From Chloroflexota bacterium (lineage in GTDB: Bacteria; Chloroflexota; Dehalococcoidia; Dehalococcoidales; JACPPQ01): DNA of 38,680 nucleotides. The position numbers and the translations under genes are program-made. This document shows, piece by piece, positions 6,002-28,317 of this stretch (the first letter of the stretch is position 1; every line of letters starts with the position of its first letter). The stretch spans positions 1 to 38,680 of the forward strand of contig JACPPQ010000084.1 of NCBI GenBank assembly GCA_016190925.1, in the 5' to 3' direction. Below the pieces are notes generated by a model. That model ran no database searches and was not told the DNA's origin. It saw nothing but the letters and a program-made list of their open reading frames with translations.

Positions 6002-6246
6002 AATACTTTCGTGAAATCTTCGATGATAAGCTAACCAAAGCCGCGGGCATAATTCTCCTGCTTATCATAGGACTGGTTACCTTTAATAGTGTTTCCGACC
6101 TCCCGGAAGAATACCCGCTTTTTGGGGTCCTCAACTTTTCACTGGTGCCGGTGCTGTTCATCGCCGGTGGTATCGTTTTTGTTCTTGCCATTCTGAAATT
6201 TAGCAACGGAGAGGACGATGGGACATCTGAGAAGTCATCGGAATAA
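5998..6246 (+). CDS. small two-TM membrane protein of the cytochrome operon
   Basis: 82 aa; AAGIILLLIIGLVTFNSV and LVPVLFIAGGIVFVLAIL; overlaps both neighbours. Confidence 0.75.
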   Translation: MKYFREIFDDKLTKAAGIILLLIIGLVTFNSVSDLPEEYPLFGVLNFSLVPVLFIAGGIVFVLAILKFSNGEDDGTSEKSSE

Positions 6247-7339
6247 ACTGTTCTTTCTGATGTTCGGCGGGGCAATAGGAATAATCCTGCTGGTCGTTGG
6301 CGGATACCAGCTTGTGGAGTTCTCCGATTCCGTTGGATTTTGTGGCCGGCTCTGTCACACCGTGATGTATCCAGAATATACCACTTACCAGGCATCTCCC
6401 CATTCCAGGGTGAAGTGCGCGGAATGCCATGTCGGCTCCGGCGCGGATTATCTGGTGAGGTCCAAGGTCAGCGGCGTGCCGCTCATCTTCTCTACTATCT
6501 TTAATAGCTATCATCGACCCATTCCCACCCCGGTGGAGAACCTGCGTCCTGCCCCGGAGACCTGCGAACAGTGCCACCGCCCGGAAAAGTTCTCCGGCGA
6601 CCTTGTCCGCGTACATATCTCTTACCAGCAGGACGAAAACAACACCAGGAAGGTTGACACCCGTGTCTTGCCCGTTGGCGGGGGCGGCCTTGATGCAGCC
6701 CAGGGTATCCACTGGCACATTGCCGCCAGGGTCTGGTATCTGGCGCTGGACGAGCAACTCCAGGACATCGCCTGGGTTGGGGTTGAGGAACAGGGAGGTG
6801 AGCTGACCGAATATCTTGACCCGAAGAAGGCGGCTGAAGTCACTCCGGAGCGGCTCAAGAACGAGAAACGCCTGATGGACTGCATCGATTGTCACAATCG
6901 GGCGACTCACATCTTCCGCTCTCCGAACGACCTGATTGATGCGGCGCTTTCTCAGGGTATGATAGATAGCAGCCTGCCTTTTATCAAGCGGGAAGGACTC
7001 AAAGCCCTCGACCCGCCCAATTCCAGCCTGGCTGAAGCTGTCGCCAAAATAGAAGCCATCAAGGACTTTTACCGCACTTCTTATCCCCAGGTATCAAAGG
7101 AAAAGAAGGCCGCTATTGACAGGGCGGTCGAGCAGCTAAAGGAAGTTGCCCGTCTGACCACTTTCCCTGAGATGAAGGTTACCTGGAAGAGCTACCTCAG
7201 CAATGCCGGGCATCAGGAATCTCCGGGTTGTCTAAGATGTCACGGCAAGCTGACAGCCACCAGCGGCCCGCAGAAGGGCACCCCCGTTGGCATTAACTGC
7301 GAGTCCTGCCACTACTTTGAGTTGCGCATACCAAAATAG
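6218..7339 (+). CDS. NapC/NirT-like multiheme cytochrome c (5 CXXCH + 1 CX3CH)
   Basis: N-terminal TM then FCGRLCHTVMYPEYTTYQASPHSRVKCAECHVGSGADYLVRSK; CEQCH, CIDCH, CLRCH, CESCH. Confidence 0.9.
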   Translation: MGHLRSHRNKLFFLMFGGAIGIILLVVGGYQLVEFSDSVGFCGRLCHTVMYPEYTTYQASPHSRVKCAECHVGSGADYLVRSKVSGVPLIFSTIFNSYHRPIPTPVENLRPAPETCEQCHRPEKFSGDLVRVHISYQQDENNTRKVDTRVLPVGGGGLDAAQGIHWHIAARVWYLALDEQLQDIAWVGVEEQGGELTEYLDPKKAAEVTPERLKNEKRLMDCIDCHNRATHIFRSPNDLIDAALSQGMIDSSLPFIKREGLKALDPPNSSLAEAVAKIEAIKDFYRTSYPQVSKEKKAAIDRAVEQLKEVARLTTFPEMKVTWKSYLSNAGHQESPGCLRCHGKLTATSGPQKGTPVGINCESCHYFELRIPK

Positions 7340-7368
7340 GTACTTTTCCTGAAAAAAGCAGGTACTTA
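7338..7368 (+). promoter_or_regulatory. putative regulator site: AGGTACTTTTCCTGAAAAAAGCAGGTACTTA repeat
   Basis: AGGTACTT occurs twice 22 bp apart with TTTTC/GAAAA symmetry between; about 30-60 bp upstream of a TATAAT (7399-7404). Confidence 0.35.
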
Positions 7369-7398
7369 TATCCTATGGAATGCGCAGGTAGTTAGTGC

Positions 7399-7404
7399 TA
7401 TAAT
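7399..7404 (+). promoter_or_regulatory. putative -10 element of the 9-heme lipoprotein gene
   Basis: tataat about 100 bp upstream of the ATG at 7506, just downstream of the AGGTACTT repeats. Confidence 0.3.
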
Positions 7405-7505
7405 ATCCCCTGAAACTAAGTATTTGCGTATCATCAGTTTGCCCTAAAAAGCTGTTTTTGGTGCTTGTGCGTTCAGAAATCTCTTAATTTTCTAAGGAGG
7501 TGTAG

Positions 7506-10103
7506 ATGCGTCATATAACCAGAAACCTGGGGTGGTGGGGCGGAGTGGCGCTGCTGGCGGCATTGCTGGCCGTAACGGCAGCCTGTAAAGCAGGGCCAGC
7601 GGGGCCAGCCGGACCGGCCGGGACCGCAGGACCCGCAGGGCCAGCAGCCAAGAACACCGGCACTGTAGCAGGGAAAGTTATCAACAGCCTTACAAAAGCT
7701 CCAGTTGCAGGGGTAGCGGTTACCACTGTGCCTGCTATTGCCGGCGTGACAATCACTTCCGGCGCCGACGGCGCGTTCACTGCTGAACTTCCTATCGGTA
7801 ATTACACCCTGACCTTTAAGAAAGCCAACTTCAAGGACGGCACTGACACGGCAGCGGTGGCAGCCGGCCAGAAGGTTACTGTTAAGGACACAGCCCTTCA
7901 GCCTCTGAAGCCGGTAGCGGTTACCATCGCGGCGCCGCAGCCATCGGCACCCGGCGCATCGGTCGCGCTTAAGGCGACCGTTGAGCCTCTGGACGGTTCG
8001 ACCGTCTCCAGCATCGAGTGGAAGCAGGTATCCGGCACGGTTGCTACGCTGGATAAGACCACCGGCGATGCCGTAAACGCCAAGCTCGGCAACGAAGCCG
8101 CTTACAAAGGGCAACTCATAAAGTCGCTAAAATTTGAAGATAGATTTGGCGTTGTGGGTATAAACCCGCATGCACTGTCCTCGACCACGACCGCTGTTTT
8201 CCAGGCTACCGTAAAGACATCCAGCGGCACCTACAGTGGTATGGTAAATGTGGTTGCCAAGCTTCCTTATAAGGATACACTCGGCATAGCCAACGTCCCT
8301 GTTGGTGTCCCCGTTCTGGTACATGCCAAAAACCAGCCCGCTTTCGCCTGGTCAATCGCTGGACCATCTGGTTCCCAGGCTAAGGTGGACACCGCTTCTG
8401 ACCAGAATGCCGTATTCACTCCTGATGTCGCCGGGAAATATACCCTTACCGAGACCAGGAGCGGGGCAAAGCTTGATGTCACCGCCGGTACCTGGGCCGG
8501 GGCTATCACCGGCATAGGCGCAGATGGCAAGCCGCTTTCTGCTGGCTGCACCACCTGTCATAACGGGACTGTTGCCGCCGATAAGTTCAAGGACTGGAAA
8601 CTCTCCGGCCACGCGGAAATCTTTACCCAGAACATCAATGACCCCAACGGACATTGGGCCATTAACTGCGCCCAGTGCCACACTGTTGGCTATGACCCGG
8701 ATGCCAAGAACAACGGGTTCGATGAGGCTGTCGCCGCTGAGGGCTGGAAAGTACCGCCGCATGGCGATGTGGGCCTCTGGCCCAAGATAGCCAAAGAGTT
8801 CCCCAAGACGGCCAGTCTGGCCAATATCCAGTGCGAGAACTGCCACGGCCCCAACAACTCCGCGCTGCATGCCAACGGCAAGATTGATGCCGAGCGCGTA
8901 AGCATATCATCCGAGACCTGCGGTTCATGCCACGGAGAGCCGCTGCGACACGGCCGCTTCCAGCAGTGGGAAGAGAGCGGGCACGCCAACTTTGAGCTGG
9001 CAATCGATGAAGCCACCGTGGAGAACCGCGGTGCTACCGCCGCTCACTGCGGACGCTGCCATTCCGGACAGGGCTTCCTTTCATGGTCAAAGCAGGGCGA
9101 CCTGACCAAGCAGATTCAGGGCAAGAGCGGCAATGCCACTGTTGACGAACTGAAGGCGATGGGTCTTACTAAAGACATCGTCCAGCCCCAGACCTGCGCT
9201 GTCTGCCACGAGCCGCATAACCCCGGCAGTATCACCGGTGAGCCGAACAACGCTACTGTACGCATTATGGGCAGCACCTCGTTGCTACCAGCAGGGTACA
9301 AGGCGGAGCATGTCGGCAAGGGCGCTCTGTGTATCACCTGCCACAATACCAGGAACGGGGCGCACAATGACAGCAAGCCGCCCACCAACTACAGCGCGCC
9401 GCATACCGCTGCCCAGGGTGACGTGCTTATGGGTGAGAACGCCTACTTGGTGGCCGAATCACAGAGGTCTCCGCACAGCTTCCTTGAGAATACCTGTGTC
9501 ACCTGTCACATGAATGCCACTCCTCCTCCGGCGGAGTTCAGCTATAACCTGGCAGGCACCAACCATTCCTTCAAGGCCAGTCCCGAAATTTGTGCTGACT
9601 GCCATACCAAGGAGTTGAACGGCGAGGCATTCAAAGAGGGGGGCGAAGCAAAACTGGAGAAGCTTGGGAAGGCGATGAGCGACTACCTGCTCAAGAAGCT
9701 CCCGTCAACCCGGGTATATATCAAGGACTACACGCCGCACAATTTTAACAACAAGTTCTACGATGTAAAGAGTGACCAGGTCATCGTCGATAGAGCAAAC
9801 ATTCTAGGGGCAGAGCCATTTGAGCCGCACGGGCAGCAGGGCTTCATCTTCAAATTCAAGACCCCCGTGACCGTCACCTATAAACCGGCGAATGAGGCTG
9901 CCCATACCGTCCAGATGAGCGAGGTTGAAATCCAGCTGGGTGACATCAGCCCGGACGGCGCCAATGCCCTCTTTGCGCCCACTGATACCTTCGTAAAGGT
10001 GGGGTGGAACTTCTGGCTGATTCACGGTGATGGAAGCGGCGGTATCCATAACCCGCTGTTCACCCAGAGGGTCATAGATGCCTCCATTCAAGCCCTGAGA
10101 TAG
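7506..10103 (+). CDS. lipoprotein multiheme cytochrome c (9 CXXCH) with collagen-like linker and carboxypeptidase-regulatory-like domain
   Basis: lipobox LAVTAAC; AGPAGPAGPAGTAGPAGPA; CTTCH, CAQCH, CENCH, CGSCH, CGRCH, CAVCH, CITCH, CVTCH, CADCH; RBS aaggagg. Confidence 0.93.
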   Translation: MRHITRNLGWWGGVALLAALLAVTAACKAGPAGPAGPAGTAGPAGPAAKNTGTVAGKVINSLTKAPVAGVAVTTVPAIAGVTITSGADGAFTAELPIGNYTLTFKKANFKDGTDTAAVAAGQKVTVKDTALQPLKPVAVTIAAPQPSAPGASVALKATVEPLDGSTVSSIEWKQVSGTVATLDKTTGDAVNAKLGNEAAYKGQLIKSLKFEDRFGVVGINPHALSSTTTAVFQATVKTSSGTYSGMVNVVAKLPYKDTLGIANVPVGVPVLVHAKNQPAFAWSIAGPSGSQAKVDTASDQNAVFTPDVAGKYTLTETRSGAKLDVTAGTWAGAITGIGADGKPLSAGCTTCHNGTVAADKFKDWKLSGHAEIFTQNINDPNGHWAINCAQCHTVGYDPDAKNNGFDEAVAAEGWKVPPHGDVGLWPKIAKEFPKTASLANIQCENCHGPNNSALHANGKIDAERVSISSETCGSCHGEPLRHGRFQQWEESGHANFELAIDEATVENRGATAAHCGRCHSGQGFLSWSKQGDLTKQIQGKSGNATVDELKAMGLTKDIVQPQTCAVCHEPHNPGSITGEPNNATVRIMGSTSLLPAGYKAEHVGKGALCITCHNTRNGAHNDSKPPTNYSAPHTAAQGDVLMGENAYLVAESQRSPHSFLENTCVTCHMNATPPPAEFSYNLAGTNHSFKASPEICADCHTKELNGEAFKEGGEAKLEKLGKAMSDYLLKKLPSTRVYIKDYTPHNFNNKFYDVKSDQVIVDRANILGAEPFEPHGQQGFIFKFKTPVTVTYKPANEAAHTVQMSEVEIQLGDISPDGANALFAPTDTFVKVGWNFWLIHGDGSGGIHNPLFTQRVIDASIQALR

Positions 10104-10678: not shown

Positions 10679-10747
10679 TAAAAACGATTGGTGGAAGTGA
10701 GGAGTGTTCGGCAGGCGCTTCTTCATTTATACCTGCGGGGTGAACAA

Positions 10748-11140
10748 ATGTTAAAAAAGAGAAAATTTCTCATCGGCGGAATAATCGTAGCATTGGCCGT
10801 GGGCTACCTTATCTTTTCGAGCTTCGGCAGCGCCACGTACTTCTTGACCGTCAGCGAACTTCTGGACCGTAAAGATACAATCTACGGACAGAATGTGCGT
10901 GTGGGCGGGCAGGTTGTGCGTGAGTCAGTGGTGCAGGAAAGCAGCGGCATGGTGCTCAAGTTCGAGGTTTCCGATGGGAAAGTAACAGTCCCGGTGGTTT
11001 ACCAGGGTGTTGTCCCTGATACCTTTGCTACCAGCGACGAGGTGGTGGTCGAGGGCCGTTTCGGGGAGTCCGGCGTGTTCCAGGCTGACCAGCTTATGCC
11101 CAAGTGCGCTTCCAAGTATGAGCCTGTTGAGCCGTCCTGA
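10748..11140 (+). CDS. ccmE: cytochrome c maturation protein CcmE, CXXXY-type heme chaperone
   Basis: single N-terminal TM; YFLTVSELL...GQNVRVGGQVV...KFEVSDGKVTVPVVYQGVVPDTF...VVVEGRF...LMPKCASKYEP. ORF track start 10688; ATG at 10748 (MLKKRKF) preferred. Confidence 0.9.
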   Translation: MLKKRKFLIGGIIVALAVGYLIFSSFGSATYFLTVSELLDRKDTIYGQNVRVGGQVVRESVVQESSGMVLKFEVSDGKVTVPVVYQGVVPDTFATSDEVVVEGRFGESGVFQADQLMPKCASKYEPVEPS

Positions 11141-11422: not shown

Positions 11423-11550
11423 AATTGTGATAGTTGTTTGGCTCTCATTTTCAGGTTAACTGAAGCTTTTGCCGATTTTGGGTATTTGGAATTTGTTTGG
11501 TTATTGTATCTTGGTTATTGGTTATTTCTACCAGGGTTAGGAGGGGGTGC

Positions 11551-12741
11551 GTGATTAAGCGTATCGTTTTGCTAATTGCGTCGTTTCTACTGTTTCTGCC
11601 TGTGACAGCCCGTGCAGCCGAGCAAGGCAACGGGACCATCAACGGGCAGGTGGTCAATGGGACTGCCGGCGGCGCCAGTGTGGCCAATCTGGACATTACT
11701 CTGAAAACTTTTCTGAAGGATGCCGCGGTAGGCATCACTTCCAGGAAGACGGACGCCGAGGGACGGTTCTCCTTCAGCGGCCTGGCAACCGACCCTACCA
11801 ATAGCTACGAGGTGAGGCTTACCTACCAGAAGGCGGACTACTTCAGCGACCTTATCAATTTTGGCCAGGGGGAGACTACCCAGTCTGTCACTGTGAACGT
11901 CTTTGATTCCACGACCAGTGACGATGCAATCAGCATTGTGCTGGCGCACATGGTATTCTATGCGGGGGAAGGCTTCTTGCAGGTGAAAGAATATGTGCAG
12001 GTCGCCAACATGTCCGACCGCACTTACATCGGGTCGACGGAAGAACCTTCTCTGAGAAGAAACGAGACATTGCGATTCGACCTGCCTGCGGGAGCAACCG
12101 AGTTGAAATATTCGCTGGGACTCAAGGAAGGCTACATAGCTTCCAGTGGAGATGGCTTTGTTGACACCCTGCCTATCATACCCGGCGCAAGAGAGGTGTC
12201 CTATTCCTACAAAGTCAGCTATGACCCGGCGGGATATACCGTCTCAAAGAAAGTGACCTATCCCATTATGAACTTCAACCTCCTCATCGAGGATAAGGGC
12301 ATCACTGCCGCCAGTAGCATGCTGACTGCGCAGGAAACCCTGAACATCGGGGGTGTCCAGTTAAAACACTACGCCGGGGGTAAGTTTACCCGGGGTGATA
12401 CTATTTCGGCGCAACTTTCCGGTGTTCCCCAGGCGCAGGCGCAGCCACAGCCACAGTTACTCGACCAGGATGACACTGCCAAATGGGTTGGACTGGCAGT
12501 AGCATCGCTGGCTGCCGCTTTTGGTGTTATCATGCTCAGGCGGAAGAAACCTCAGCCTGCGGCATCTCTGAACAGTGCCAGACAGAAAGAAGAACAACTG
12601 CTCCTGGAGCTTGCCAGGCTGGATGATGATTTTGAGAAGGGGAGCATCCCCGAGGAGTCTTACCGGAAGCTGCGGGCTGATAGAAAAGCGCAGCTGGCGG
12701 CGCTCATCCGGAAGCCGAAAGGTGATGCGGGTAAGATTTAG
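11551..12741 (+). CDS. secreted/membrane-anchored protein with carboxypeptidase-regulatory-like (Ig-fold) domain
   Basis: GTG start after ggaggg RBS; signal peptide MIKRIVLLIASFLLFLPVTARA; GTINGQVVNGTAGGASVANLDITLKTFL; C-terminal TM WVGLAVASLAAAFGVIML then charged tail. ORF track start 11497. Confidence 0.8.
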   Translation: MIKRIVLLIASFLLFLPVTARAAEQGNGTINGQVVNGTAGGASVANLDITLKTFLKDAAVGITSRKTDAEGRFSFSGLATDPTNSYEVRLTYQKADYFSDLINFGQGETTQSVTVNVFDSTTSDDAISIVLAHMVFYAGEGFLQVKEYVQVANMSDRTYIGSTEEPSLRRNETLRFDLPAGATELKYSLGLKEGYIASSGDGFVDTLPIIPGAREVSYSYKVSYDPAGYTVSKKVTYPIMNFNLLIEDKGITAASSMLTAQETLNIGGVQLKHYAGGKFTRGDTISAQLSGVPQAQAQPQPQLLDQDDTAKWVGLAVASLAAAFGVIMLRRKKPQPAASLNSARQKEEQLLLELARLDDDFEKGSIPEESYRKLRADRKAQLAALIRKPKGDAGKI

Positions 12742-13472
12742 TGGCAGAACCATTTTCGACGGTTTGGGCAGTTGAGACTCAGGACGTTACCAAGGTCTTT
12801 GGTAACCACCTCGCTTTGAGAGGCGTGAACCTCAAGGTAGCCGGAGGCGAGTCTGTGGTGCTCTATGGCCCTAACGGTGCCGGGAAAACCACGCTGCTCA
12901 GGGTGCTTTCCACCATTATGAAGCCCACCTCCGGCAATATTCTTATCGATGGCCTGAATTTGAAAGACCATGCCGAGGCTCTTCAGAGGAGGATGGGCAT
13001 AGTTTCTCACCACACTTTCCTCTATAACAGCCTCACCGCCTTCGAGAACCTGGACTTCTACAGCCGGATGTATGATGTGCCCGATGCCAGGGAGCGAATC
13101 CGGGAGGTGGTCGACATGGTGGGAATGACTGCCCGCCTCCACGACCGTGTGGGCATCCTTTCCCGCGGTATGCAGCAAAGGCTCTCCATAGCCCGCGCCC
13201 TGCTGCATAAGCCGTCCCTGATGCTCCTGGACGAGCCTGAGACCGGGCTCGACCAGCAGGCCATCTCCATGCTCTGGGAGGCCTTGAAAAGCGAAGGACA
13301 GGGAAAACGCACTGTCATTTTCACCACCCACACTCTTGAAAGAGGGCTGGAGCTTGGGGAACGTCTGTTGATTCTGGACCGGGGCAAGATTGTGCATGAA
13401 AGCGCTACAAAAGATATGGACCTGGCATGCCTCAAGGAAACATACCGGCGCGCCACGGGGGTGGGGGTATGA
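12741..13472 (+). CDS. ccmA: heme exporter ABC ATP-binding protein CcmA
   Basis: Walker A GPNGAGKTT, signature LSRGMQQRLSIARALLHKP, Walker B LMLLDEPETGLD; followed by ccmB/ccmC. Confidence 0.92.
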   Translation: MAEPFSTVWAVETQDVTKVFGNHLALRGVNLKVAGGESVVLYGPNGAGKTTLLRVLSTIMKPTSGNILIDGLNLKDHAEALQRRMGIVSHHTFLYNSLTAFENLDFYSRMYDVPDARERIREVVDMVGMTARLHDRVGILSRGMQQRLSIARALLHKPSLMLLDEPETGLDQQAISMLWEALKSEGQGKRTVIFTTHTLERGLELGERLLILDRGKIVHESATKDMDLACLKETYRRATGVGV

Positions 13473-14140
13473 GTTTCTGGCGCAAGGCGCTGGCCATCAC
13501 CCGCAAGGACGCCCTCTCCGAGCTGCGCACCAAAGAAATTATATCTTCGGTGCTGGTGTTTGCCTTGCTGGTCATCCTGACCTTCAACTTTGCTTTTGGC
13601 GCCAACCAGGAGACCATGAAGCTGGTAGCGCCGGGCATCCTGTGGGTGACTTTTACCTTTTCCGGAGTCCTGAGCCTCAACCGTTCCTTTATCTCGGAGG
13701 TGGAGCAGGACTGCCTCGAGGGCCTGAAAGTGTGCCCTGTAGGCAGGGAAGCCATTTACGTCGGCAAGGCTCTGGGAAGCCTTCTTTTTATGCTCATTAT
13801 CGAGGCAATCGCCTTGCCGGTCTTTGCCTTGTTCTTCAACCTGCAGGTGCTCTCGCCTCAACTGGTGCTTATCACCTTCCTTGCCACTGTAGGATTTGTT
13901 TCTGTCGGAATCCTGTTCTCGGCTCTTTCGGTGAACACCAGGGCGCGGGAGATGGTCTTGCCCATCCTCTTTCTCCCCATTGTCGTTCCGGTGGTCATCA
14001 GCGCGGTAAAGGCTTCGGAACTGGCGCTATCCGGCGCCACCTGGAGCGCGCTGTCATCCGGGATTTTGATAATTCTGGCTTTCGATGCGATTTTTCTGGT
14101 GGCATCGTTCTTTACGTTTTCCTTCGTCATCGAGGAATAG
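13469..14140 (+). CDS. ccmB: heme exporter membrane protein CcmB
   Basis: MSFWRKALAITRKDALSELRTKEIISSVLVFALLVILTFNFAF; six TM-like segments; ATGA overlap with ccmA. ORF track start 13427. Confidence 0.92.
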   Translation: MSFWRKALAITRKDALSELRTKEIISSVLVFALLVILTFNFAFGANQETMKLVAPGILWVTFTFSGVLSLNRSFISEVEQDCLEGLKVCPVGREAIYVGKALGSLLFMLIIEAIALPVFALFFNLQVLSPQLVLITFLATVGFVSVGILFSALSVNTRAREMVLPILFLPIVVPVVISAVKASELALSGATWSALSSGILIILAFDAIFLVASFFTFSFVIEE

Positions 14141-14149
14141 GAGGCAAGC

Positions 14150-14821
14150 ATGAAAAACAATCACGTAAGGAATATCGTGCTGGCAGTGAGCCTGGCGCTT
14201 ACGGTGCTGGCTATGTACATGGTCTTTATATTCGTGCCCACGGAGAGGACTATGGGCATTGTGCAGAGAATCTTCTATCTCATGCTTCCAATGGGATGGC
14301 TGGCCATGCTTGCCTTTACCATCATCTTTATCAACAGTATCCTCTACCTTAAAAAGCGGGAGGACAAATACGACCTCCTGGCACGCTCTGCGGCTGAACT
14401 GGGACTGGTCTTCACCACCCTCACGCTTATTACAGGCTCCCTGTGGGCCAGGCCTGTATGGCATGTGTGGTGGACCTGGGAGCCGCGGTTAACTACCACG
14501 CTGGTCCTCTGGGTAATTTACATTGCCTATTTCATGGTGCGCTCCTTTGCCTCGGAAGAGCATCGGGGTGCCACCTTCGCTGCGGTAGTGGGAATCATCG
14601 GTTTTATTGATGTGCCTATCATCGGTATGTCAACCAGTATCTGGAGAGGGCTGCACCCTGGCGCGATTATGTTTCAGGGTGGGTTGGCTCCTCCCATGGT
14701 GCAGACACTCGTGGTTAGCCTGCTGGCCTTTACGGGTATTTTTTCAGTCCTTTTGATACAGCTTGTTGCCCTGAAGAATGATGAAAATGCCCTGATGGTA
14801 TTGAAGAAAATACCTGATTAA
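14150..14821 (+). CDS. ccmC: heme exporter/handling protein CcmC
   Basis: tryptophan-rich WARPVWHVWWTWEPRLTTTLVLWVIYIAYF and HPGAIMFQGGLAPPM. Confidence 0.95.
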   Translation: MKNNHVRNIVLAVSLALTVLAMYMVFIFVPTERTMGIVQRIFYLMLPMGWLAMLAFTIIFINSILYLKKREDKYDLLARSAAELGLVFTTLTLITGSLWARPVWHVWWTWEPRLTTTLVLWVIYIAYFMVRSFASEEHRGATFAAVVGIIGFIDVPIIGMSTSIWRGLHPGAIMFQGGLAPPMVQTLVVSLLAFTGIFSVLLIQLVALKNDENALMVLKKIPD

Positions 14822-14854: not shown

Positions 14855-15001
14855 ATGGAGAATGGCGGATATTTATTTGCTGCTTATTCCGTAGTCTGGG
14901 TGGCGGTTTTTGCATATATCACTCTCCTTATCAGAAGGCAAAAAAGACTGCACCGGGACATCGAACTGCTGCGCCAGGCACGGGAAAAGCAAGACAAATA
15001 G
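14855..15001 (+). CDS. ccmD: CcmD-like small membrane protein (48 aa), absent from the supplied ORF track
   Basis: manual translation MENGGYLFAAYSVVWVAVFAYITLLIRRQKRLHRDIELLRQAREKQDK*; single TM plus basic tail; immediately after ccmC. Confidence 0.88.
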   Translation: MENGGYLFAAYSVVWVAVFAYITLLIRRQKRLHRDIELLRQAREKQDK

Positions 15002-15126: not shown

Positions 15127-17475
15127 ATGAAGTCCCTGAATAATTTGACCCTGGGAAAGAAAATCACTTTCCTGACCGCTGTAGGGCTGCTGCTGGGTGT
15201 CGGCATCCTCAGTTTTCTGGGCATGCGCGCGGTGAACGATTCAACGGATACAATGCTTCGTGACCGCCAGACTACCGCCCGTATAGTGGCAGACTATCTG
15301 GATGAAACGCTGGGGCGTGCCCTTACGGAGTTGACCAGGACCGCCGGTATGCTGGATACCCGCCAGAATCCGGATGAAATCGATTTTCGGATACGGGTAT
15401 TGGAGGACCGCTATTCCCTTCTCTCGATTGAAACTCAGGGTGTCTATCTTCTCAATCGAGAGGGTCGGGTTGTTTGGAGCAAACCGACAGCTCCAGGAGA
15501 AACGTTTGGCGATGTCGTCTCCTATTCCACCATCATCCAGACTTTGCGAGAAAGCAAGACTACCGTCTCCGGCCTGGTTCCAGCGCCCAGGACGGGTACA
15601 CCGGTGGTGCTTCTTGCCAGTCCCGTCAGGGTAGGGGAAATGGGCGCGCTGGTGGTAGCCGTTTACCCTTCGGCGTCAAGCATCGGGGGCTTTGTCCGTC
15701 CAATAAGATTGGGCGAAACAGGCTATGTGGAGATTGTAGACCAGAATGGCACGGTGGTTGTCAGAACGGAGCCGGGGCCAAAGCTCGCTCCATTTGAGAA
15801 AAGCGACCACAGCGGCCGGTTTGTCGCATTGATAGAGGCGGGAGAGCCGACCCGCGGCCTGTGTCATACCTGTCATGAACCCGGTCAAAGGGTGATGAAC
15901 AAGGATGTGCTGGGTTTTGTCCCCCTTTCTCAGGCGCGCTGGGGAGTCGTTATCCGCCAGTCGGAAGATGAAGCGCTGGCTTCTATCGGCGATTTGCGCC
16001 GGGGCATTATACTCTTCGGTGTTGGACTGATTTCGGTTGCCCTTATCTTCGTGGCGGTAACTACGCGGGATGTCGTGGGTAGAATCAGGATGCTGACGCT
16101 GGCTTCCCGCAGGATGGCAGAGGGTGATATGGCCAGTCCCGTTGATGTAGCCCGTGGAGACGAGGTTGGCCTGCTGGCAAGCACTTTTGAGGATATGAGG
16201 ACCAAGCTCAGGGACTCCTACCTGGAGCTGGAGCAAAGGACTAAAGAGCTTTCTTCACTGCTTTCTCTTTCCGATATTCTCTCCGCTCTCAGAGACCTCT
16301 CCAATCAAGAGTCTATACTCGGCAAAGCGCTGGACAAGACACTGGAGATAATGAAGGAGGATATCGGCGGCATTCTCTTGCTTGACGAAGGTAAGCAGAC
16401 ATTGTGCTACGCAGCCCACCGAGGACTATTGCCGGAGGATACTCAGAGCGCATGCTATCATGTGGGTGAAGGCCTGGCTGGCAGGGTGGCTGAAACCGGG
16501 GAGGCCATCCTCGTCGGCGATGTCCTGAACGACCCCCGGCTGGTACCCTCCGACCGTACCCACGATGTTGACGGGCTTAAGGCGCTGGCAAATGTTCCTT
16601 TGCTCTCCAAGGACAAGGTGCTTGGCGTGCTAACTATCGGCAGTCGCGAGGTTCGCAGGTTCACCGGGGATGACGCCCGGCTGCTCGAGGTGATAGCCGG
16701 ACAGATAGCTACGGCTCTGGAAAACGCCCAGTTGCAGCAGGAAGTGCAGCACAAGGAAGAGATGCGCGGCGTTTTGCTGCGGGAGATTTTCTCTATCCAG
16801 GAAGAGGAGAGAAGGAGAATTGCCCGCGAGCTGCACGATGAGACCAGCCAGGTGCTCGCCAGCTTGAGCGCCAGCCTGGAGGCGGCTTCCAGCCTGCTGC
16901 CCGATGGCGTGCAAAAGACCAGGGCAATCCTGAAGAAGGCCCAGGCACTGTCAATCCATATCCTGGACGAGATACACAAGATAATCTATGAACTCCGTCC
17001 TACGTTACTTGACGACCTGGGTCTGGTTGCTGCCGCACGCTGGTTGGCTGATAATAACCTGGGTGAGGCCGGGATAAAGGCTACCTTCAAGATTGTAGGG
17101 CAGGAGAGGAGACTGCCGCCCCAACTGGAAGCAACCGTCTTTCGAGTTATCCAGGAAGCGGTGTATAATATTGCCAGGCATGCTCAAGCTACGAGCGCTA
17201 CTATAAGTCTGCAGTTCAGGAAAGACTCGTTAGGGGTCCGCGTTGAAGATAATGGAGTAGGCTTCGATGTTGAAAAGGTCATAAGCTCAGCCGATAGGCC
17301 GCGCGGGCTGGGCCTGTTAGGCATGAGGGAAAGGGTGGAGCTTATCAACGGGACTTTGAGAATTCTTTCGTATCCCGGCAGTGGTACCGAAATTGACATA
17401 GAGATTCCTTTGAATCCTGAGGAGGTATTAGATGGACAAGGAAAACAACAAGATAAAAGTATTGATGGTAGATGA
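15127..17475 (+). CDS. sensor histidine kinase with extracytoplasmic CXXCH heme c motif, HAMP, GAF, HisKA_3, HATPase
   Basis: Cache-like periplasmic region containing RGLCHTCHEPG (15862-15876); HAMP; GAF-like region; RRIARELHDETSQ; EDNGVGFD. Confidence 0.93.
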   Translation: MKSLNNLTLGKKITFLTAVGLLLGVGILSFLGMRAVNDSTDTMLRDRQTTARIVADYLDETLGRALTELTRTAGMLDTRQNPDEIDFRIRVLEDRYSLLSIETQGVYLLNREGRVVWSKPTAPGETFGDVVSYSTIIQTLRESKTTVSGLVPAPRTGTPVVLLASPVRVGEMGALVVAVYPSASSIGGFVRPIRLGETGYVEIVDQNGTVVVRTEPGPKLAPFEKSDHSGRFVALIEAGEPTRGLCHTCHEPGQRVMNKDVLGFVPLSQARWGVVIRQSEDEALASIGDLRRGIILFGVGLISVALIFVAVTTRDVVGRIRMLTLASRRMAEGDMASPVDVARGDEVGLLASTFEDMRTKLRDSYLELEQRTKELSSLLSLSDILSALRDLSNQESILGKALDKTLEIMKEDIGGILLLDEGKQTLCYAAHRGLLPEDTQSACYHVGEGLAGRVAETGEAILVGDVLNDPRLVPSDRTHDVDGLKALANVPLLSKDKVLGVLTIGSREVRRFTGDDARLLEVIAGQIATALENAQLQQEVQHKEEMRGVLLREIFSIQEEERRRIARELHDETSQVLASLSASLEAASSLLPDGVQKTRAILKKAQALSIHILDEIHKIIYELRPTLLDDLGLVAAARWLADNNLGEAGIKATFKIVGQERRLPPQLEATVFRVIQEAVYNIARHAQATSATISLQFRKDSLGVRVEDNGVGFDVEKVISSADRPRGLGLLGMRERVELINGTLRILSYPGSGTEIDIEIPLNPEEVLDGQGKQQDKSIDGR

Positions 17476-18091
17476 CCATGCAGTGTTGCGGGATGGCATC
17501 CGTGCTCTCCTGGATATGCATGATGACATCGAGATAGTAGGCGAGGCTTCGGAAGGACGGGAAGCCATTGAAAAGGCCGTTGCTCTGTCCCCTGATGTAG
17601 TCATCATGGATATAGCCATGCCGGGCATGGATGGCCTGGAGGCAACCCGCCGCATAGCCAAGAAAAACCCGAAGGTGAAGGTGCTGATTCTAACCCAGCA
17701 CGATAACCGGGAGTACATACTCTCCGCCATCAAGGCTGGGGTTGCTGGTTATGTGCCCAAAAGGGCAATGGGCTCGGAACTGGTATCTGCCATACGCGCC
17801 GTGCACAAGGGTGAATCCTTCCTCTATCCTTCTGCGGCTTCGGCGCTCATCGAGGTCTACCTGCGCCAGTCCGAGGACGAGCCTTATGACCGACTGACCG
17901 ATAGAGAGCGGGAAATCCTCAAGCTCATCGCCGAGGGACATACCAGCAGGGAGATAGCGGAGCGGCTTTTCATCAGCCTGAAGACCGTGCTGGGCCACAG
18001 GACGAAGATAATGGAGAAGCTGGATATCCATAACCGGACCGAGCTTATCAAATATGCCATGCGCAAGGGTCTGGTCACTATGGATACATAG
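17432..18091 (+). CDS. NarL/FixJ family response regulator
   Basis: KVLMVDDHAVLRDGIRALL...DVVIMDIAMPGMDG...LTDREREILKLIAEGHTSREIAERLFISLKTVLGHRTKIMEKL. Confidence 0.95.
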   Translation: MDKENNKIKVLMVDDHAVLRDGIRALLDMHDDIEIVGEASEGREAIEKAVALSPDVVIMDIAMPGMDGLEATRRIAKKNPKVKVLILTQHDNREYILSAIKAGVAGYVPKRAMGSELVSAIRAVHKGESFLYPSAASALIEVYLRQSEDEPYDRLTDREREILKLIAEGHTSREIAERLFISLKTVLGHRTKIMEKLDIHNRTELIKYAMRKGLVTMDT

Positions 18092-19398: not shown

Positions 19399-20688
19399 CT
19401 ACACCGCCTTGAGCGCATTTCCAATCGCTTCCACGGTGCGCTTGATGTCCTCGTCGCTGTGTGCCAGTGAGACAAAAGCGGCTTCGAACTGGGATGGCGG
19501 CCAGTACACCCCTTCGGCGAGCAGATGGGTGAAGAACCTGCTGAACAGCGCCGTGTCCGATTTCTTCGCTGAATCATAATCGGTTACCGGAGTGCCGGTG
19601 AAGAATGCGGTAAGCAGAGAGGCAATGCGGGAGGTGCGCAATCTGACGCCCGCCTCAGAAGCGACCTTTGCTATCCCATCCTCCAGCTTTGAGGTCTTCT
19701 CCTCCAGTTTGCTATAGACGCCGGGCTGACCGAGGACGTTGAGCGTTTCTATGCCCGCCGTCATCGCCAGCGGATTTCCCGAGAGCGTACCCGCCTGGTA
19801 AACCGGCCCGACCGGGGCCATCATCTCCATTAGTTTACGCCCGCCGCCGTAGGCGCCTACCGGCAGCCCTCCGCCGATGATTTTGCCCAGGCAGGTGAGG
19901 TCGGGGGTTACGTTGTAGAGGGACTGTGCCCCTCCGTATGCTACCCGGAATCCGGTGATGACCTCGTCGAAGATGAGGAGAGCGCCTGAGTCCCTGGTCA
20001 GTTGGCGCAGGCCGCCAAGAAAACCGTGTTCGGGCAATACCACACCCATGTTTGCCGCTACGGGTTCCACTATGACCGCAGCGATTTCTCCGGGGTAGCG
20101 CTCGAAGAGTTGCTTCACATCCCCGATATTATTATAAGGCGCAACGAGGGTATTCTGGGTGTAGCTTAACGGGACTCCCGGAGAGTCCGGTATGCCCAGA
20201 GTCGCCAGTCCTGAACCGCCTTTGGTTAGCAGGCCGTCTGAGTGGCCGTGATAGCCGCCGTCGAACTTGATAATCTTATCTCTCCTGGTGAATGCCCGCG
20301 CCAGGCGCAGCGCTGACATGGTGGCTTCCGTCCCGGAATTTACGAAACGCAGCATCTCCATCGAAGGGAAAGCCTTCGATATGAGCTTCGCCAGCCTAAC
20401 CTCCAGCTCTGTTGAAGCGCCGAAGCTCGTGCCCTGCTCCACAGCCTTCTTCAATGCCTTTACTACCTGCGGGTGGGAGTGCCCCAGTATCAGCGGTCCC
20501 CACGAGCAGACGTAATCGATGAACTCGTTGCCATCCTCATCGTGAATTTTTGAGCCTTTTCCTCTCACTATGAAAATCGGAGTCCCCCCCACTGCCTTGA
20601 AGGCGCGCACGGGGCTATCCACCCCACCGGGCAAGTACTGTTGTGCTTCTTCAAACAGCTTCTGCGAACGTTCCAGTTTCATTAGCAC
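19399..20688 (-). CDS. hemL: glutamate-1-semialdehyde 2,1-aminomutase
   Basis: [11 protein letters not shown], [16 protein letters not shown], [36 protein letters not shown]. Confidence 0.97.
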
Positions 20689-20787
20689 CTCACGATATCA
20701 AATCCTAAGCCCTGAGCACTAAATCCTAAACAATTTGTCATGCGCCTGAGGCGCACTCACGAACGATGAAAATAATCACAAAAGAAA

Positions 20788-20831
20788 CGTCTCCCTTTCG
20801 TAAAGGGAGATAGAGAGGGATTTTTAATCCC
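20788..20831. repeat. second copy of CTCCCTTTcgtAAAGGGAG repeat
   Basis: cgtctccctttcgtaaagggagatagagagggatttttaatccc. Confidence 0.7.
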
Positions 20832-20869
20832 ATTAAGTCAAACTAAGCGCCTTTATTTTCTGGTAATGG

Positions 20870-21472
20870 TTAAACTTTCAAAACATTGATTTTGTATCCA
20901 AGTTTGTTGAGCTTTGACTTAGCGCGGCGTTCCATTTCTTCGGTTGTAACTACATAAAACTTATCTCCCGGCATATCAGAGAGCTTCTTAAGGGTTGTTG
21001 ACATTTTACCATCAATGGCCCCTTTGGGATTAGGGGAGGTTGTAACCTCAGCCGAGACAATAACTTGGTTCATATTCATACCTTTCAGATCGGGTTCATC
21101 CTTGCCACCGGTTTGACGGGGATTCCAAAACCACTTAATTAATGTTGTCGGATAGAAGTTAGTCTGAAGCAATTTTACCGTTCTTAATATTAGTCCCTCG
21201 TGTGGTAGCTGGTTCATGTCCTCGGCCACTAAGTTTCGGAGACTTTCCAAGATTTCTAAACTCAAATAAAGATCCCTCGGTTCAACCTGACCAGCCTTTC
21301 GGATATGGGGAAAAACCTCTCTAAGTTGACCATGAAGCCTATTTTCTGCTAGCGCAATGTTACCGATTTCGTCCATTTGTGCGAACTCCTCCGTTACTCT
21401 ATTTGTAATAGTCCAGTTCCTGAAGTGTCCAACACTCGTCCAAGCTTTATCCCCGCAACCACTTCGCCACAT
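20870..21472 (-). CDS. uncharacterised protein inside the hem operon; possible nuclease-like fold at the C-terminus
   Basis: ORF of 200 aa whose 5' end overlaps hemB by 26 bp; alternative ATG at 21376 gives [14 protein letters not shown] (168 aa). C-terminal [11 protein letters not shown]...[31 protein letters not shown]. Confidence 0.6.
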
Positions 21473-22424
21473 CTTTAGCGTGGTAGGTGATGATGATGTC
21501 CGCCCCGGCCCTCTTTATGGCCGTAAGAGACTCCATTACCACCCGCTGTTCCTCCAGCCAGCCTTTCTGCGCCGCTGCCTTGAGCATGGAGTATTCGCCG
21601 CTGACGTTGTACGCCGCCAGCGGATGGTTGAAGGTATCACGCACCTTGCGTATGACATCGAGGTAAGCCAGGGCGGGCTTGACCATAATGATGTCGGCTC
21701 CCTCGTTGATGTCCTGTTCTACCTCGCGCAGAGCCTCCCGCACATTCGGCGGGTCCATCTGGTAGGAGCGGCGGTCCCCGAACTGCGGCGTTGACTCCGC
21801 TGCCTCCCGGAAAGGCCCGTAGAACGCGGAAGCGTACTTGGCAGCATAGGACATTATGGGGATATTCGGGAATCCCTTTGCGTCCAGCGTCTCGCGGATG
21901 GCCTTCACCCTGCCGTCCATCATGTCTGAAGGGGCTACCATGTCAGCCCCGGCCTCTACATGGGACAGAGCCATCTTAGCCAGCAGGGGCAACGTCCGGT
22001 CATTATCGACATCGGTTCCGGCTATTACGCCGCAGTGCCCGTGGCTGGTGTACTCGCAAAGGCAGACATCGGTCACTACCAGGAGTTCGGGAACGGCCTT
22101 CTTTATGACGCGGATGGCCTGCTGGACGACCCCCTTCGGGGCGCAGGACGCCGAGCCGGTCTCATCCTTGCGCTCGGGAATGCCGAAAAGAATGACGGCC
22201 GGTATTTTGAGACGGGCGATTTCCTCAACCTCTTTGGATAACCTGTCCGGTGAGAAGTGGTGGATGCCCGGCATGGAGGAAATTCCCTTTTTTATGCCTT
22301 TGCCCTCGACCACGAACAGCGGGTAAATGAGCTGCTCCACCTGGACACGGGTCTCGCGGACAAGCGCCCTCATCGATTCCGTCTGCCGGAGCCGTCTCAG
22401 GCGCAGTTGAGGGAATTCCGCCAT
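21447..22424 (-). CDS. hemB: delta-aminolevulinic acid dehydratase (porphobilinogen synthase)
   Basis: RPRRLRQT-type start, [59 protein letters not shown]. Confidence 0.97.
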
Positions 22425-22450
22425 CTAAATCTCCTTTAATGAAAATTACC

Positions 22451-22570
22451 GAGGCTGTCTGAAAATTTATTTTGTTGAAGGTGGTGACGAAGAATTCGCC
22501 CTCACCCCACCTGGATTCCAGCCTTCGCTGGAATGACAAACCACTTGATTTTCTATTTTCGGACAGCCTC
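22451..22570 (-). repeat. ~120-bp inverted-terminal element, copy B
   Basis: gaggctgtctgaaaa...ttttcggacagcctc; reverse complement aligns to copy A along its length. Confidence 0.8.
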
Positions 22571-22587
22571 TAAATAATGTACAGGGT

Positions 22588-22696
22588 AAAGGGACGGAGT
22601 CCCTTGGCCGCACGCAGAGCTTGCCTGAGCCTGCCCTGAGCGAAGCCGAAGGGTACCTGATACGGGGGTCAATCCCCTGCAGTGCGGAATTGCTTT
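22588..22696 (-). repeat. 109-bp dispersed repeat, copy 1, overlapping the 3' end of cobA-hemD
   Basis: aaagggacggagtcccttggccgcacg...gcagtgcggaattgcttt; about nine mismatches by eye to 26482-26590. Confidence 0.88.
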
Positions 22697-24204
22697 ACGA
22701 AGTATCGCTCGATAGCTGCCACCAGGCCGGGTATAGTCTGCTCGGTGGCAAGTATATCTACCTTCAGTCCCGCCTTGACCGCCGTATCTGCCGTCTTGGG
22801 GCCGATGCAGGCGACCCTTGTGCCGTTCATCGCCGGTGGTTCTTTCCCGAACAATGCCATCAGGTTTGACACCGTCGAAGAGCTGGTAAATGTAATTATA
22901 TCGATTTCCCCGTTAATTAGCAGCTTCTTTGCCCTGGCAAGCGCATCGGCAGGGAGAACGGTGTGGTACGCGGCGATTTCGTGCACCTCGCCGCCGAGCT
23001 TGGTGATTCCGTCTACCAGTTCCCTGTCCGCGATATCGGCGCGCGGGAGCAGGAACCGTTGCCCGGCAATGTCACGCTTCTTGAGTCCAGCCACAAATCC
23101 CTCGCTGGTATAGATTTCGGGAACGTAATCTGCGGCTATCCCTTTGTTTTCGAGCGTCAGGGCGGTAGCAGAGCCGATAGCCCCGATTGTGACCTTGCTC
23201 AGGGCGCGGGCATCCAGCTTCAAGGCGTGAAGTCGCTGGAAGAATGCCTCGACTCCGTTGGTGCTGGTGAAGACCAGCCAATTATAGCTTTGAAGACCCA
23301 GAATTGCGTTGTCTATTTCTGAAGTGTCGGTCACCGGCTGTATGTCGATGGCCGGCAGTTCGACAGGCTGAGCGCCTCTTTCCGACAAAAGCCTGCTCAG
23401 CGAGCTTGCCTGCTGGCGCGACCTGGTGACCAGCACCCGCTTGCCGAAGAGAGGGCGGTTATCGAACCAGCGAAGCTGTTCCCTGAGTTTGACCACCTCT
23501 CCCACCACGACCACCGAGGGCGGCCCCAGCTTGCTATTCTTTACTTTGCTCACTATGTCCTTAAGTGTTCCGGTCACTGTTCTCTGTGACGACCTTGTAC
23601 CGTCCTTGATGACGGCCACTGGTGTCCCGGGTGTTCTCCCGTGCTCGATAAGTTTGGCTACGATTTCGGGCAGGTTCTGCATCCCCATGAGGAAGACCAG
23701 GGTATCCACTGCCGTGGCTAACTTTTCCCAGTTGATGCTGGTGTCCGGCTTGGTGGGGTCTTCATGGCCGGTGACTACGGCAAAAGACGATGCCAGATGA
23801 CGGTGGGTGACGGGGATTCCGGCATAGGCCGGGACTGCCACCGCCGAGGTTATTCCGGGGACAACCTCGAAGGGGATGCCTTCGGTTTTCAGCGCTTCCG
23901 CTTCCTCCCCACCCCGCCCCAGCACGAACGGGTCGCCCCCCTTGAGGCGCACCACGGTCTTGCCCTCTTTCCCCTTTTCCACCAGCAGCCGGTTTATCTC
24001 ATCCTGCTCTTTCGCGTGTTTTGCCCCGGTCTTGCCGACATAGAGTCTTTCCGCCTGCGGGGTCGCCGCGTTTAGAAGTTGCTCATCGAGCAGGTGGTCG
24101 TAGACCACAACGTCGGCTATTGCCAGGCACTCGAGTCCCTTCTTCGAAATAAGGCCGGGGTCGCCGGGCCCGGCTCCGACCAGGTAAACCTTGCCTGTTT
24201 TCAT
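22669..24204 (-). CDS. cobA-hemD: fused uroporphyrinogen-III C-methyltransferase / uroporphyrinogen-III synthase
   Basis: GKVYLVGAGPGDPGLISKKGLECL...VVRLKGGDPFVLGRGGEEAEAL (SUMT) followed by RVLVTRSRQQASSLSRLL...ITFTSSSTVSNL...ACIGPKTADTAVKAGL (HemD). Confidence 0.95.
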   Translation of the reverse strand: MKTGKVYLVGAGPGDPGLISKKGLECLAIADVVVYDHLLDEQLLNAATPQAERLYVGKTGAKHAKEQDEINRLLVEKGKEGKTVVRLKGGDPFVLGRGGEEAEALKTEGIPFEVVPGITSAVAVPAYAGIPVTHRHLASSFAVVTGHEDPTKPDTSINWEKLATAVDTLVFLMGMQNLPEIVAKLIEHGRTPGTPVAVIKDGTRSSQRTVTGTLKDIVSKVKNSKLGPPSVVVVGEVVKLREQLRWFDNRPLFGKRVLVTRSRQQASSLSRLLSERGAQPVELPAIDIQPVTDTSEIDNAILGLQSYNWLVFTSTNGVEAFFQRLHALKLDARALSKVTIGAIGSATALTLENKGIAADYVPEIYTSEGFVAGLKKRDIAGQRFLLPRADIADRELVDGITKLGGEVHEIAAYHTVLPADALARAKKLLINGEIDIITFTSSSTVSNLMALFGKEPPAMNGTRVACIGPKTADTAVKAGLKVDILATEQTIPGLVAAIERYFVKQFRTAGD

Positions 24205-25124
24205 CTTTTTCTAGCCTCGGCTATGAACTCGGAAGCGCCCTTTGCCAGCATCTTTTCCGCCAGCCGGTTGCCCAGCTCCTCGGGAAAAGCAGCGTCACCT
24301 TCTTCAATATTGCGCATCACCTTTTTGCCTGTTGGGTCGGCTACCATTCCTTCGAGTCTCAGGGTGGAGCCGTTCACCGTTCCCAGTGCGCCGATAGGTG
24401 CGCGACAGCCGCCTCCCAGGGTCAGGAGGAAAGCGCGCTCCGCTAATACGCTTTTCCATGTGGGAAGGTGGTTCAGCGGGGAAACAACCTCCGTCACCTT
24501 GCTATCATTCAGCCGTCCTTCTATTACCAGCGCTGCCTGCCCCACTGCCGGCAGGAAGTGCTCCAGGGGCAAATATTGGGTTATTTTATCATTCCAGCCC
24601 AGGCGGTGCATTGCCGCTGCTGCCAGCATCACGCCATCGAACTCGCCGGAAGCTACTTTACGGATGCGGGTATCGACATTTCCTCTGATACTGCATGCTT
24701 GCAGGTCCGGGCGGTAATGGGCCAGTTGTGCCGAGCGCCGCAGGCTGTCTGTACCTATCCTTGAACCTGTGGCAAGCTGGTCGAGATTGCCCCCACGGGA
24801 TATCAGGACATCTCGCGGGTCTTGTCTTTCCAGTGATGCCATCAGGCAAAGTCCCGGCGAAATCTCGGTGGGCACGTCTTTCAGGCTATGCACCGCTATG
24901 TCAATCCTGCCATCCAGCAGGGCTTCCTCAAGTTCCTTGACGAAGATACCGATGCTTCCGACCTGCTCCAGCGGAATGCTGCGGTTGCGGTCGCCTTCAG
25001 TCACGATTTTCTTGATAGTTACATCGAGGCTGGGATGAACCGCTCTGAGCTCGACTGCCACTGTCTCGGACTGGACCAGGGCCAGTCTGCTTCCCCGGGA
25101 ACCAACGATAATATTTTCTTTCAT
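24201..25124 (-). CDS. hemC: porphobilinogen deaminase (hydroxymethylbilane synthase)
   Basis: MKENIIVGSRGSRLALVQSETV, IAVHSLKDVPTE, GGGCRAPIGALG. ORF track extends to 25202; ATG at 25124 overlaps the hemA stop. Confidence 0.96.
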   Translation of the reverse strand: MKENIIVGSRGSRLALVQSETVAVELRAVHPSLDVTIKKIVTEGDRNRSIPLEQVGSIGIFVKELEEALLDGRIDIAVHSLKDVPTEISPGLCLMASLERQDPRDVLISRGGNLDQLATGSRIGTDSLRRSAQLAHYRPDLQACSIRGNVDTRIRKVASGEFDGVMLAAAAMHRLGWNDKITQYLPLEHFLPAVGQAALVIEGRLNDSKVTEVVSPLNHLPTWKSVLAERAFLLTLGGGCRAPIGALGTVNGSTLRLEGMVADPTGKKVMRNIEEGDAAFPEELGNRLAEKMLAKGASEFIAEARKR

Positions 25125-26380
25125 CAGTGTTTTTCCAGCTTCAAGCGGAAGAGCTCTGCCAGGGCCTTTGCGTAGCCATTGTTTTTGTCTGCTTTGACGC
25201 ACTGTATGGGGTCGTTGAGCAGCTTGTTGACTATCGCCCTGGTCATCGCCTCCAGGCTTTCACGTTCTTCATCGGAGAGCGGATGCAGCTTTTTGAGAGT
25301 CTGCTCCAACTGGTTTGAGCGTATTTCTTCGGCTTTACGGGTCAGGGCGCTGACGATTGGTGTGACCTCAAGGGTCTGCCACCACAGGAGGAACTTGTCT
25401 ATCTCTTCCGCCACTATTTTGGCGGCCATTTGCGTTTCGCTCTCCCGTTCTTTGCGGTTCGTTTCGGATAGGTGATTAAGGTCGTCTATGTTGTAGAGGA
25501 ATACGTTTTCGAGCTTCCCGACCTCCGGCTCCACGTTGCGGGGAAGCGCGATATCGATTATCACCAGGGGAAGCTCAGGACGCTTCTTCATGACGTCCTT
25601 GATATTGCGGGCATGAATCAGGGGGTGGGGCGCTGCGGCGCAGGTGACCACTATATCGGTTGTGCCCAGCTCGTTATCCAGGTTTTCCATCCCGGTAGGT
25701 ATACCGCCTAATGTTTCCGCCAGTTCCTGTGCCCTTTCCCTGGTGCGGTTCGCAACCACAATCTGTCGGGTTCCCCTCTCTTTGGCCGCCTTTGCCACCA
25801 GCTTGCCGGCTTCCCCGGCGCCGATAACCAGCATTCTGCATTTTTCAAAGTTGCCAACCGCCTGTGCGGCCAGGGCTACTGCTACAGAGCTGATGGAAAG
25901 GGCATTCCGGCTGATTCCGGTTTCATCCCGGACGCGCCTGCCGGTACGGATGGCGCTCTGGAATAGCTGGCGCAGGGGAAGGTTCACCGTTCCAGCCTTC
26001 TCTGCCGCATCCAGCGAGTTTCCCACCTGGCCCAGCACTTCATACTCCCCCGTAATCTGGGAATCCAGTCCAGAGGCGACATGGAAGAGGTGCTTTACCG
26101 CTTCCTGGTCCTCGATGTGATAGGCGTGTTGGAGCAGATAAACATCCGAGGTGTTAAGCAGGGACTTGTAGAAGTCCAATCCCGCCTTCCCTGCGCGAGC
26201 GGCATTCTCGTCCACGGTGTATACCTCAGTGCGATTGCAGGTGGAAAGAATCACACCCCAGGGTGTATAGATGCGGAGTGAAGACAATGTATCGGCAAGC
26301 TGCTGGGTGCCGATGGCCACTTTTTCCCGGATGCTCACCGGCGCAGTTACATGGTTCACCCCGATCAGGCTGATATGCAT
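25124..26380 (-). CDS. hemA: glutamyl-tRNA reductase
   Basis: GVNHVTAPVSIREK, LSTCNRTEVY, HLFHVASGLDSQITGEYEVLGQV, VIGAGEAGKLVAKAAKERG. Confidence 0.97.
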   Translation of the reverse strand: MHISLIGVNHVTAPVSIREKVAIGTQQLADTLSSLRIYTPWGVILSTCNRTEVYTVDENAARAGKAGLDFYKSLLNTSDVYLLQHAYHIEDQEAVKHLFHVASGLDSQITGEYEVLGQVGNSLDAAEKAGTVNLPLRQLFQSAIRTGRRVRDETGISRNALSISSVAVALAAQAVGNFEKCRMLVIGAGEAGKLVAKAAKERGTRQIVVANRTRERAQELAETLGGIPTGMENLDNELGTTDIVVTCAAAPHPLIHARNIKDVMKKRPELPLVIIDIALPRNVEPEVGKLENVFLYNIDDLNHLSETNRKERESETQMAAKIVAEEIDKFLLWWQTLEVTPIVSALTRKAEEIRSNQLEQTLKKLHPLSDEERESLEAMTRAIVNKLLNDPIQCVKADKNNGYAKALAELFRLKLEKH

Positions 26381-26413
26381 ACGGCCTCCACCGTCATTTT
26401 ACGTAAGTAAACG

Positions 26414-26462
26414 CCCTGCGCCTGCTTGCCCTCCGTAACTTTAGTGAAGGAGGGGCGCAGGG
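26414..26462 (-). other. strong hairpin in the hemA upstream region
   Basis: minus strand CCCTGCGCC ... GGCGCAGGG outer 9-bp stem with inner CCTCC/GGAGG stem; about 35 bp upstream of the hemA ATG. Confidence 0.55.
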
Positions 26463-26481
26463 TTAAAATATGCAGGTTTCC

Positions 26482-26590
26482 AAAGGGACAGAGTCCCTTG
26501 GCCGCACGCGGAGCCTGCCCCAGCCTGCCCTGAGCGAAGCCGAAGGGTACTTGATACGGGGGTCAACGCCCCGCAGTGCGGAATTGCTTT
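26482..26590 (-). repeat. 109-bp dispersed repeat, copy 2, overlapping the 3' end of the precorrin-2 dehydrogenase gene
   Basis: aaagggacagagtcccttggccgcacg...gcagtgcggaattgcttt. Confidence 0.88.
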
Positions 26591-28208: not shown

Positions 28209-28256
28209 TCCTATTCCTCTGTCATCTTTGTCAAAAGTCACAAGCAATCACATAAT

Positions 28257-28312
28257 TTGTCATTGCGAGACCATTCACGACACAGTCGTGAAGGCGAAGC
28301 AATCTCAGTGGT
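28257..28312. repeat. TGTCATTGCGAG...GAAGCAATCTC type interspersed repeat
   Basis: tgtcattgcgagaccattcacgacacagtcgtgaaggcgaagcaatctc; ends partly complementary, internal TTCACGAC/GTCGTGAA palindrome. Confidence 0.6.
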
Positions 28313-28317
28313 TTGAA

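Follow-up and report, generated by a model that had tools for sequence, protein, structure and literature searches.

The histidine kinase HK1, encoded at 15127–17475 on the forward strand of the window (the whole 38,680-nucleotide stretch of DNA analysed here), probably belongs to a second family of Cache sensors with covalently bound heme. This putative family has a double-Cache scaffold, is independent of the known sCache_heme domain, occurs in Chloroflexota, Nitrospirota and Acidobacteriota, carries a fixed H-x17-CHxCH signature and appears to have lost the heme site repeatedly in kinases that keep the operon; the probability of this reading is put at about 0.7. The heme c Cache sensor is a known kind of protein, while the double Cache, the position of the motif in another loop and the signature appear to be new in the literature searched. 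If the reading is true, heme c was acquired by Cache sensors on at least two occasions, at sites on either side of one strand.

Domain architecture and topology of HK1

The HK1 open reading frame is intact and its product, of 782 amino acids, is arranged as TM1, a dCache sensor with CHTCH, TM2, HAMP, GAF, HisKA_3 and HATPase_c. Pfam places dCache_1 at residues 48–214, HAMP at 312–363, GAF at 395–532, HisKA_3 at 561–627 and HATPase_c at 669–763, confirming the original prediction of a kinase with a Cache-like sensor, GAF and HisKA_3 domains. The match to dCache_1 (PF02743) scores 47.8 bits, above the curated cut-off of 45. HK1 is a HisKA_3 two-component kinase by its HisKA_3 and HATPase_c domains and its adjoining NarL-type regulator; this NarL/LuxR-type response regulator (17432–18091, forward strand) overlaps the end of HK1 and is its probable cognate partner.

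The sole CXXCH of HK1 is C246-H247-T248-C249-H250 (15862–15876, forward strand). C246 and C249 are two of four cysteines in the protein, and the number of CXXCH motifs expected by chance for its composition is ~0.0003. Hydropathy indicates two TM segments, at residues about 12–37 and 289–318, and the motif is assigned to the extracytoplasmic side because these hydrophobic segments flank it; it lies about 40 residues upstream of TM2 and HAMP. The original prediction had placed it in this region and had named a cytoplasmic position as grounds for refutation; the topology bears the prediction out. An exported CXXCH is a substrate of the Ccm system. Exactly 18 residues upstream of the first Cys is His228 (15808–15810, forward strand), a candidate distal ligand.

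The sensor region that was modelled and aligned spans residues 30–292 (15214–16002, forward strand). Its AF2 model (pLDDT 88.6, pTM 0.86, from a 41-row alignment) predicts a double Cache, with two Cache modules following a long helix, and its top Foldseek matches among solved structures are PctB, PctA and HK1S-Z16. In the predicted membrane-proximal module the order is b1, b2, helix 229–238, b3 242–247, CXXCH 246–250, b4 259–266 and b5 273–279 (protein numbering). Structure prediction, which had been proposed as a check, thus puts the motif where b3 ends, ahead of b4; the lowest-confidence part of the model is the loop with CXXCH, after the motif. The assignment of the motif to the Cache region stands in a more precise form, namely in the second, proximal module, a placement that comes from the structure model alone, the Pfam dCache_1 match stopping at residue 214.

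Conservation of the motif among relatives

To judge from the sequences compared, the CHTCH of HK1 is no accident, as the same site occurs in paralogs and relatives. Three more kinases in the same genome carry CXXCH at the equivalent site. When 84,980 species genomes were scanned with a search pattern that drew partly on the motif itself (CHxCHE), 29 loci were returned, all with CXXCH; they are mostly Dehalococcoidia/Chloroflexi, with two Nitrospirota, one Vicinamibacterales and one labelled Deltaproteobacteria. CXXCH is also present in all nine loci that depart from CHxCHE. Profile searches did not require the motif, but CXXCH members were the basis of the profile and its scores favour them. 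The HK1-family profile matched in 20 of 400 genomes of the phylum, gave a strong match, with or without CXXCH, in 38 of the 294 genomes of the window's class, and matched in 5 of 199 and 5 of 198 genomes of two other phyla. In the phylum of a Nitrospirota locus, 198 genomes yielded 31 strong matches, whose scores stood well clear of those of ordinary dCache matches. Every one of the 41 family members tested matches dCache_1.

An alignment was made of 150 related sensor domains from Chloroflexota, Nitrospirota, Acidobacteriota and one more group. CXXCH occupies the same column in 99 rows, CX3CH is found in one and neither in 50, so that both Cys and the His, whose lack of conservation in orthologues had also been named as grounds for refutation, are retained in 99 of the 150 relatives. 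The first x of the motif is His in 96 of the 99 rows (CHxCH), as against about 0.3% of 314 CXXCH motifs in the multiheme cytochromes found at these loci; at the level of sequence, His at this position is therefore a feature of the HK1 family. Heme attachment does not need a His there, and its near-invariance suggests that the site may do more than hold heme, or something else. A His at position −18 from the first Cys is present in 91 of the 99 CXXCH rows and also in 41 of the 50 rows without CXXCH. It therefore has no simple reading as a heme ligand, and its candidacy as a heme-specific one is weakened. About a third of the HK1 family is without CXXCH, in some cases within the same operon type, and the putative heme would thus be non-essential to the architecture.

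Several relatives depart from the signature in other ways. In L117 and L118, CHRCK replaces CHRCH and the upstream His is absent; a CXXCK of this kind resembles the active-site heme motif of NrfA. A Nitrospirota subclade (L098, L103, L104, L108, L109) has HHDHG...CxHG instead of H-x17-CHxCH, possibly a different metal site. L053 and L055 have CLGCTG, that is, CxxC without the His; the His is lost in L161 (CHDCGQ), and L166 has the CX3CH variant CHSGCH. CXXCH is kept in L090, L093, L095, L102 and L105, where the upstream His is replaced by Y or R and a Cys two residues before is a possible alternative axial ligand.

Relationship to sCache_heme and other sensors

Kinases with heme c bound in a Cache domain have already been described as sCache_heme, which, according to a 2026 preprint, was the first Cache domain known to carry a covalent cofactor and is rare in, or absent from, Chloroflexota (PMC12889525). 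The sCache_heme domain (PF11845; Tll0287, GSU0582, GSU0935) resembles the HK1 sensor in having an extracytoplasmic Cache-type fold with CXXCH and in its frequent fusion to HAMP and a kinase or another output. It differs in being a single Cache module and a separate sequence family, with its CXXCH inserted beyond the xPL strand, between the final two strands. The PF11845 profile has no match in HK1, in 41 HK1-family members or in this genome, and it matches in 2 of 294 genomes of the window's class; as a control, both the PF11845 and HK1 families are found in the two Nitrospirota genomes tested, showing that the search works. When the HK1 family is compared with PF11845 by hhalign, only the motif aligns. 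CXXCH precedes the conserved xPL strand in the HK1 family, whereas it follows this strand in the sCache_heme control model; the controls for strand order were this model, which finds 5b82 and 3b42, and the 3b47 sequence.

Profile, hhalign, structure model and strand order together reject membership of HK1 in PF11845. Because there is no PF11845 match, no profile likeness beyond the motif, and a position on the opposite side of the xPL strand, the CXXCH of the HK1 family looks like a second, independent acquisition by Cache sensors, apart from sCache_heme, as far as sequence comparison can tell. HK1 had been put forward as an attractive new case. As a heme c Cache kinase it is not, sCache_heme having been described; its novelty lies in falling outside sCache_heme, with a double Cache and the motif in a different loop.

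In fold and domain family HK1 sides with the dCache_1 sensors (PF02743: PctA/PctB, sporulation kinase D), which supply its top structural and sequence matches; it differs from them in the CXXCH loop of its proximal module. Most known ligands of dCache_1 sensors are amino acids (PMC4822843), and no covalent cofactor is described for these sensors in the literature searched. DcrA of Desulfovibrio vulgaris, a periplasmic c-type heme sensor of redox potential and oxygen (PMC8396549), resembles HK1 as interpreted here but is a chemoreceptor, not a kinase; the comparison is by description. The periplasmic domain of DvhD (9rc2), a weak structural match of the control model, was rejected as a heme sensor; its paper deals with a c-di-GMP receptor that acts in adhesin control and never mentions heme.

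Genomic neighbourhood

The window brings together multiheme cytochromes, Ccm genes, heme synthesis and two kinases. The forward strand carries multiheme cytochromes within 4286–10103 (4286–5236, 6218–7339 and 7506–10103), with a cytochrome b561-type protein at 5237–6001 among them. These are followed on the same strand by CcmE (10688–11140; its CASKY is a CxxxY-type heme motif), a membrane protein of unknown role with an apparent signal peptide and a charged tail (11497–12741), CcmA (12741–13472; above the TIGR01189 curated cut-off), CcmB (13427–14140) and CcmC (14150–14821), the last two being best matches to ccmB and ccmC under the curated cut-offs. A 48-aa ORF at 14855–15001 is CcmD-like by sequence and position only. 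HK1 comes next, and its adjacency to the ccm genes, as originally described, is upheld. The genome encodes CcmABCE and a CcmF-like protein. Downstream, on the reverse strand at 19399–31339, lies a near-complete siroheme-type pathway of heme biosynthesis genes: a HemL-type class-III aminotransferase, hemB, a uroporphyrinogen methyltransferase-hemD fusion, hemC, hemA and a siroheme synthase-like gene, together with a NirDL-like decarboxylase, two radical SAM proteins and a MerR-type regulator. An operator search by inverted repeats found scattered short repeats, none of them clearly shared.

The order membrane protein-ccmA-ccmB-ccmC-kinase-regulator was observed in four genomes only, that of this window and those of L013, L014 and L015. 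Elsewhere in Chloroflexota, ccm genes are mostly absent from the flanks read, although L170 has ccmE nearby. Most HK1 relatives instead adjoin regulator and/or cytochrome genes, so the adjacency of ccm genes, taken originally as a clue to function, does not amount to a general rule. In one survey of 23 distinct Nitrospirota CXXCH loci, a NarL-type regulator adjoins the kinase in all 23 and multiheme cytochrome and/or cytochrome b561-type neighbours are present in 20; the order at nearly all loci read is multiheme cytochrome, cytochrome b561-type gene, kinase, NarL-type regulator. Neighbours of one or both of these cytochrome types are also present at L034, L035, L036, L037 and L011. The co-occurrence of c-cytochrome assembly genes was tried as a test for heme and is non-discriminating: a Cytochrom_C_asm protein is found in 25 of 27 CXXCH-carrier genomes checked and in 24 of 24 motif-free relatives checked.

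Proposed mechanism and alternative explanations

HK1 is most likely a heme c redox (or NO) sensor over cytochrome and heme genes, given that it lies among multiheme cytochromes, Ccm genes and a siroheme-type pathway. In the proposed mechanism, one heme c would be bound covalently at C246 and C249 of the membrane-proximal Cache module, with H250 as the proximal ligand. The Cache module and TM2 would shift when the iron changes its oxidation state or takes up NO or some other small ligand, H228 or a different distal ligand possibly being displaced. HAMP and GAF would then relay the signal to the HisKA_3 kinase, and phosphotransfer would carry it on to the NarL-type regulator, whose most plausible targets, to go by gene position only, are the cytochrome, Ccm and heme genes around it. 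On balance this scheme, from covalent heme through kinase and regulator to nearby genes, seems rather better than an even bet. The HK1 family would then provide a candidate sensor for timing the electron-transfer machinery in uncultured, cytochrome-rich Chloroflexota and Nitrospirota.

Two of the alternatives concern what the putative heme senses. Heme c sensors that respond to redox state and NO have precedents in GSU0582/GSU0935 and sCache_heme (PMC8396549, PMC12889525); GSU0582/GSU0935 bind NO and CO (PMC8396549) and signalling-type sCache_heme binds NO tightly (PMC12889525), from which it is possible, though clearly short of even odds, that the heme of HK1 senses gas, chiefly NO, and not redox potential. 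The conserved His at −18, however, could give a six-coordinate bis-His heme, which would favour redox sensing, and the neighbourhood consists of cytochromes and heme synthesis; the window proteins scanned include no enzyme recognised as making or detoxifying NO, except for a weak NrfH-like stretch within the cytochrome at 6218. The original suggestion that the kinase senses the maturation status of its own locus, the apo-sensor signalling a shortage of heme or Ccm capacity, draws on the ccmA-ccmB-ccmC-kinase-regulator order kept in L013, L014 and L015 and on the heme pathway downstream in the window. This is improbable for HK1 and unlikely as a function of the family: that order was observed in four genomes only, and most of about 100 CXXCH kinases lie away from ccm genes (flank lengths vary).

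Two further explanations concern the site and its origin. A non-heme metal site (e.g. Zn or Fe with Cys/His ligands) or a redox disulfide would accommodate the near-invariant His at the first x (96 of 99), so rare in neighbouring cytochromes, the likewise near-invariant His at −18, and the HHDHG...CxHG found in the motif's place in the Nitrospirota subclade. Such a site is nevertheless unlikely: the motif is an exact extracytoplasmic CXXCH, as recognised by Ccm, its neighbours are cytochrome genes, and the upstream His persists where the Cys are lost, unlike in a shared metal site. It is very improbable that the HK1 sensor is a distant sCache_heme member with a diverged scaffold; what the two share is a Cache-type fold and a CXXCH close to a module's last strands, but against this stand the lack of any PF11845 match in HK1, the 41 family members tested and the genome, the alignment of the motif alone by hhalign, and the location of CXXCH on the other side of the xPL strand. 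A covalent heme c in a double-Cache sensor remains the preferred reading.

HK2 and the evolution of the motif

A second kinase in the window, HK2 (1333–3072, reverse strand), adjoins its own regulator (672–1346, reverse strand). It is like HK1 in its double-Cache sensor and kinase family, and differs in having neither CXXCH nor the upstream His, the stretch that holds SDH...CHxCH being absent. HK2 also adjoins multiheme cytochrome and cytochrome b561-type genes, and relatives so placed mostly carry CXXCH.

Relatives without CXXCH, HK2 among them, occur in several branches. On a sensor tree built with the motif columns left out, the motif is clustered (11 changes vs 42 in shuffles), and supported branches force at least three changes. 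The tree is unrooted, comes from a quick search and leaves many forks open, and for these reasons gain and loss are in general indistinguishable. The position of HK2 on the tree is among CXXCH rows, though not strongly supported, and the L156 kinase that adjoins the matching cytochrome genes has CXXCH; together these favour loss of the motif in HK2, as far as the sequences go. Relatives with and without CXXCH in the same operon type offer natural pairs for asking what the putative heme adds. In L156, one contig carries two CXXCH kinases around multiheme cytochrome genes.
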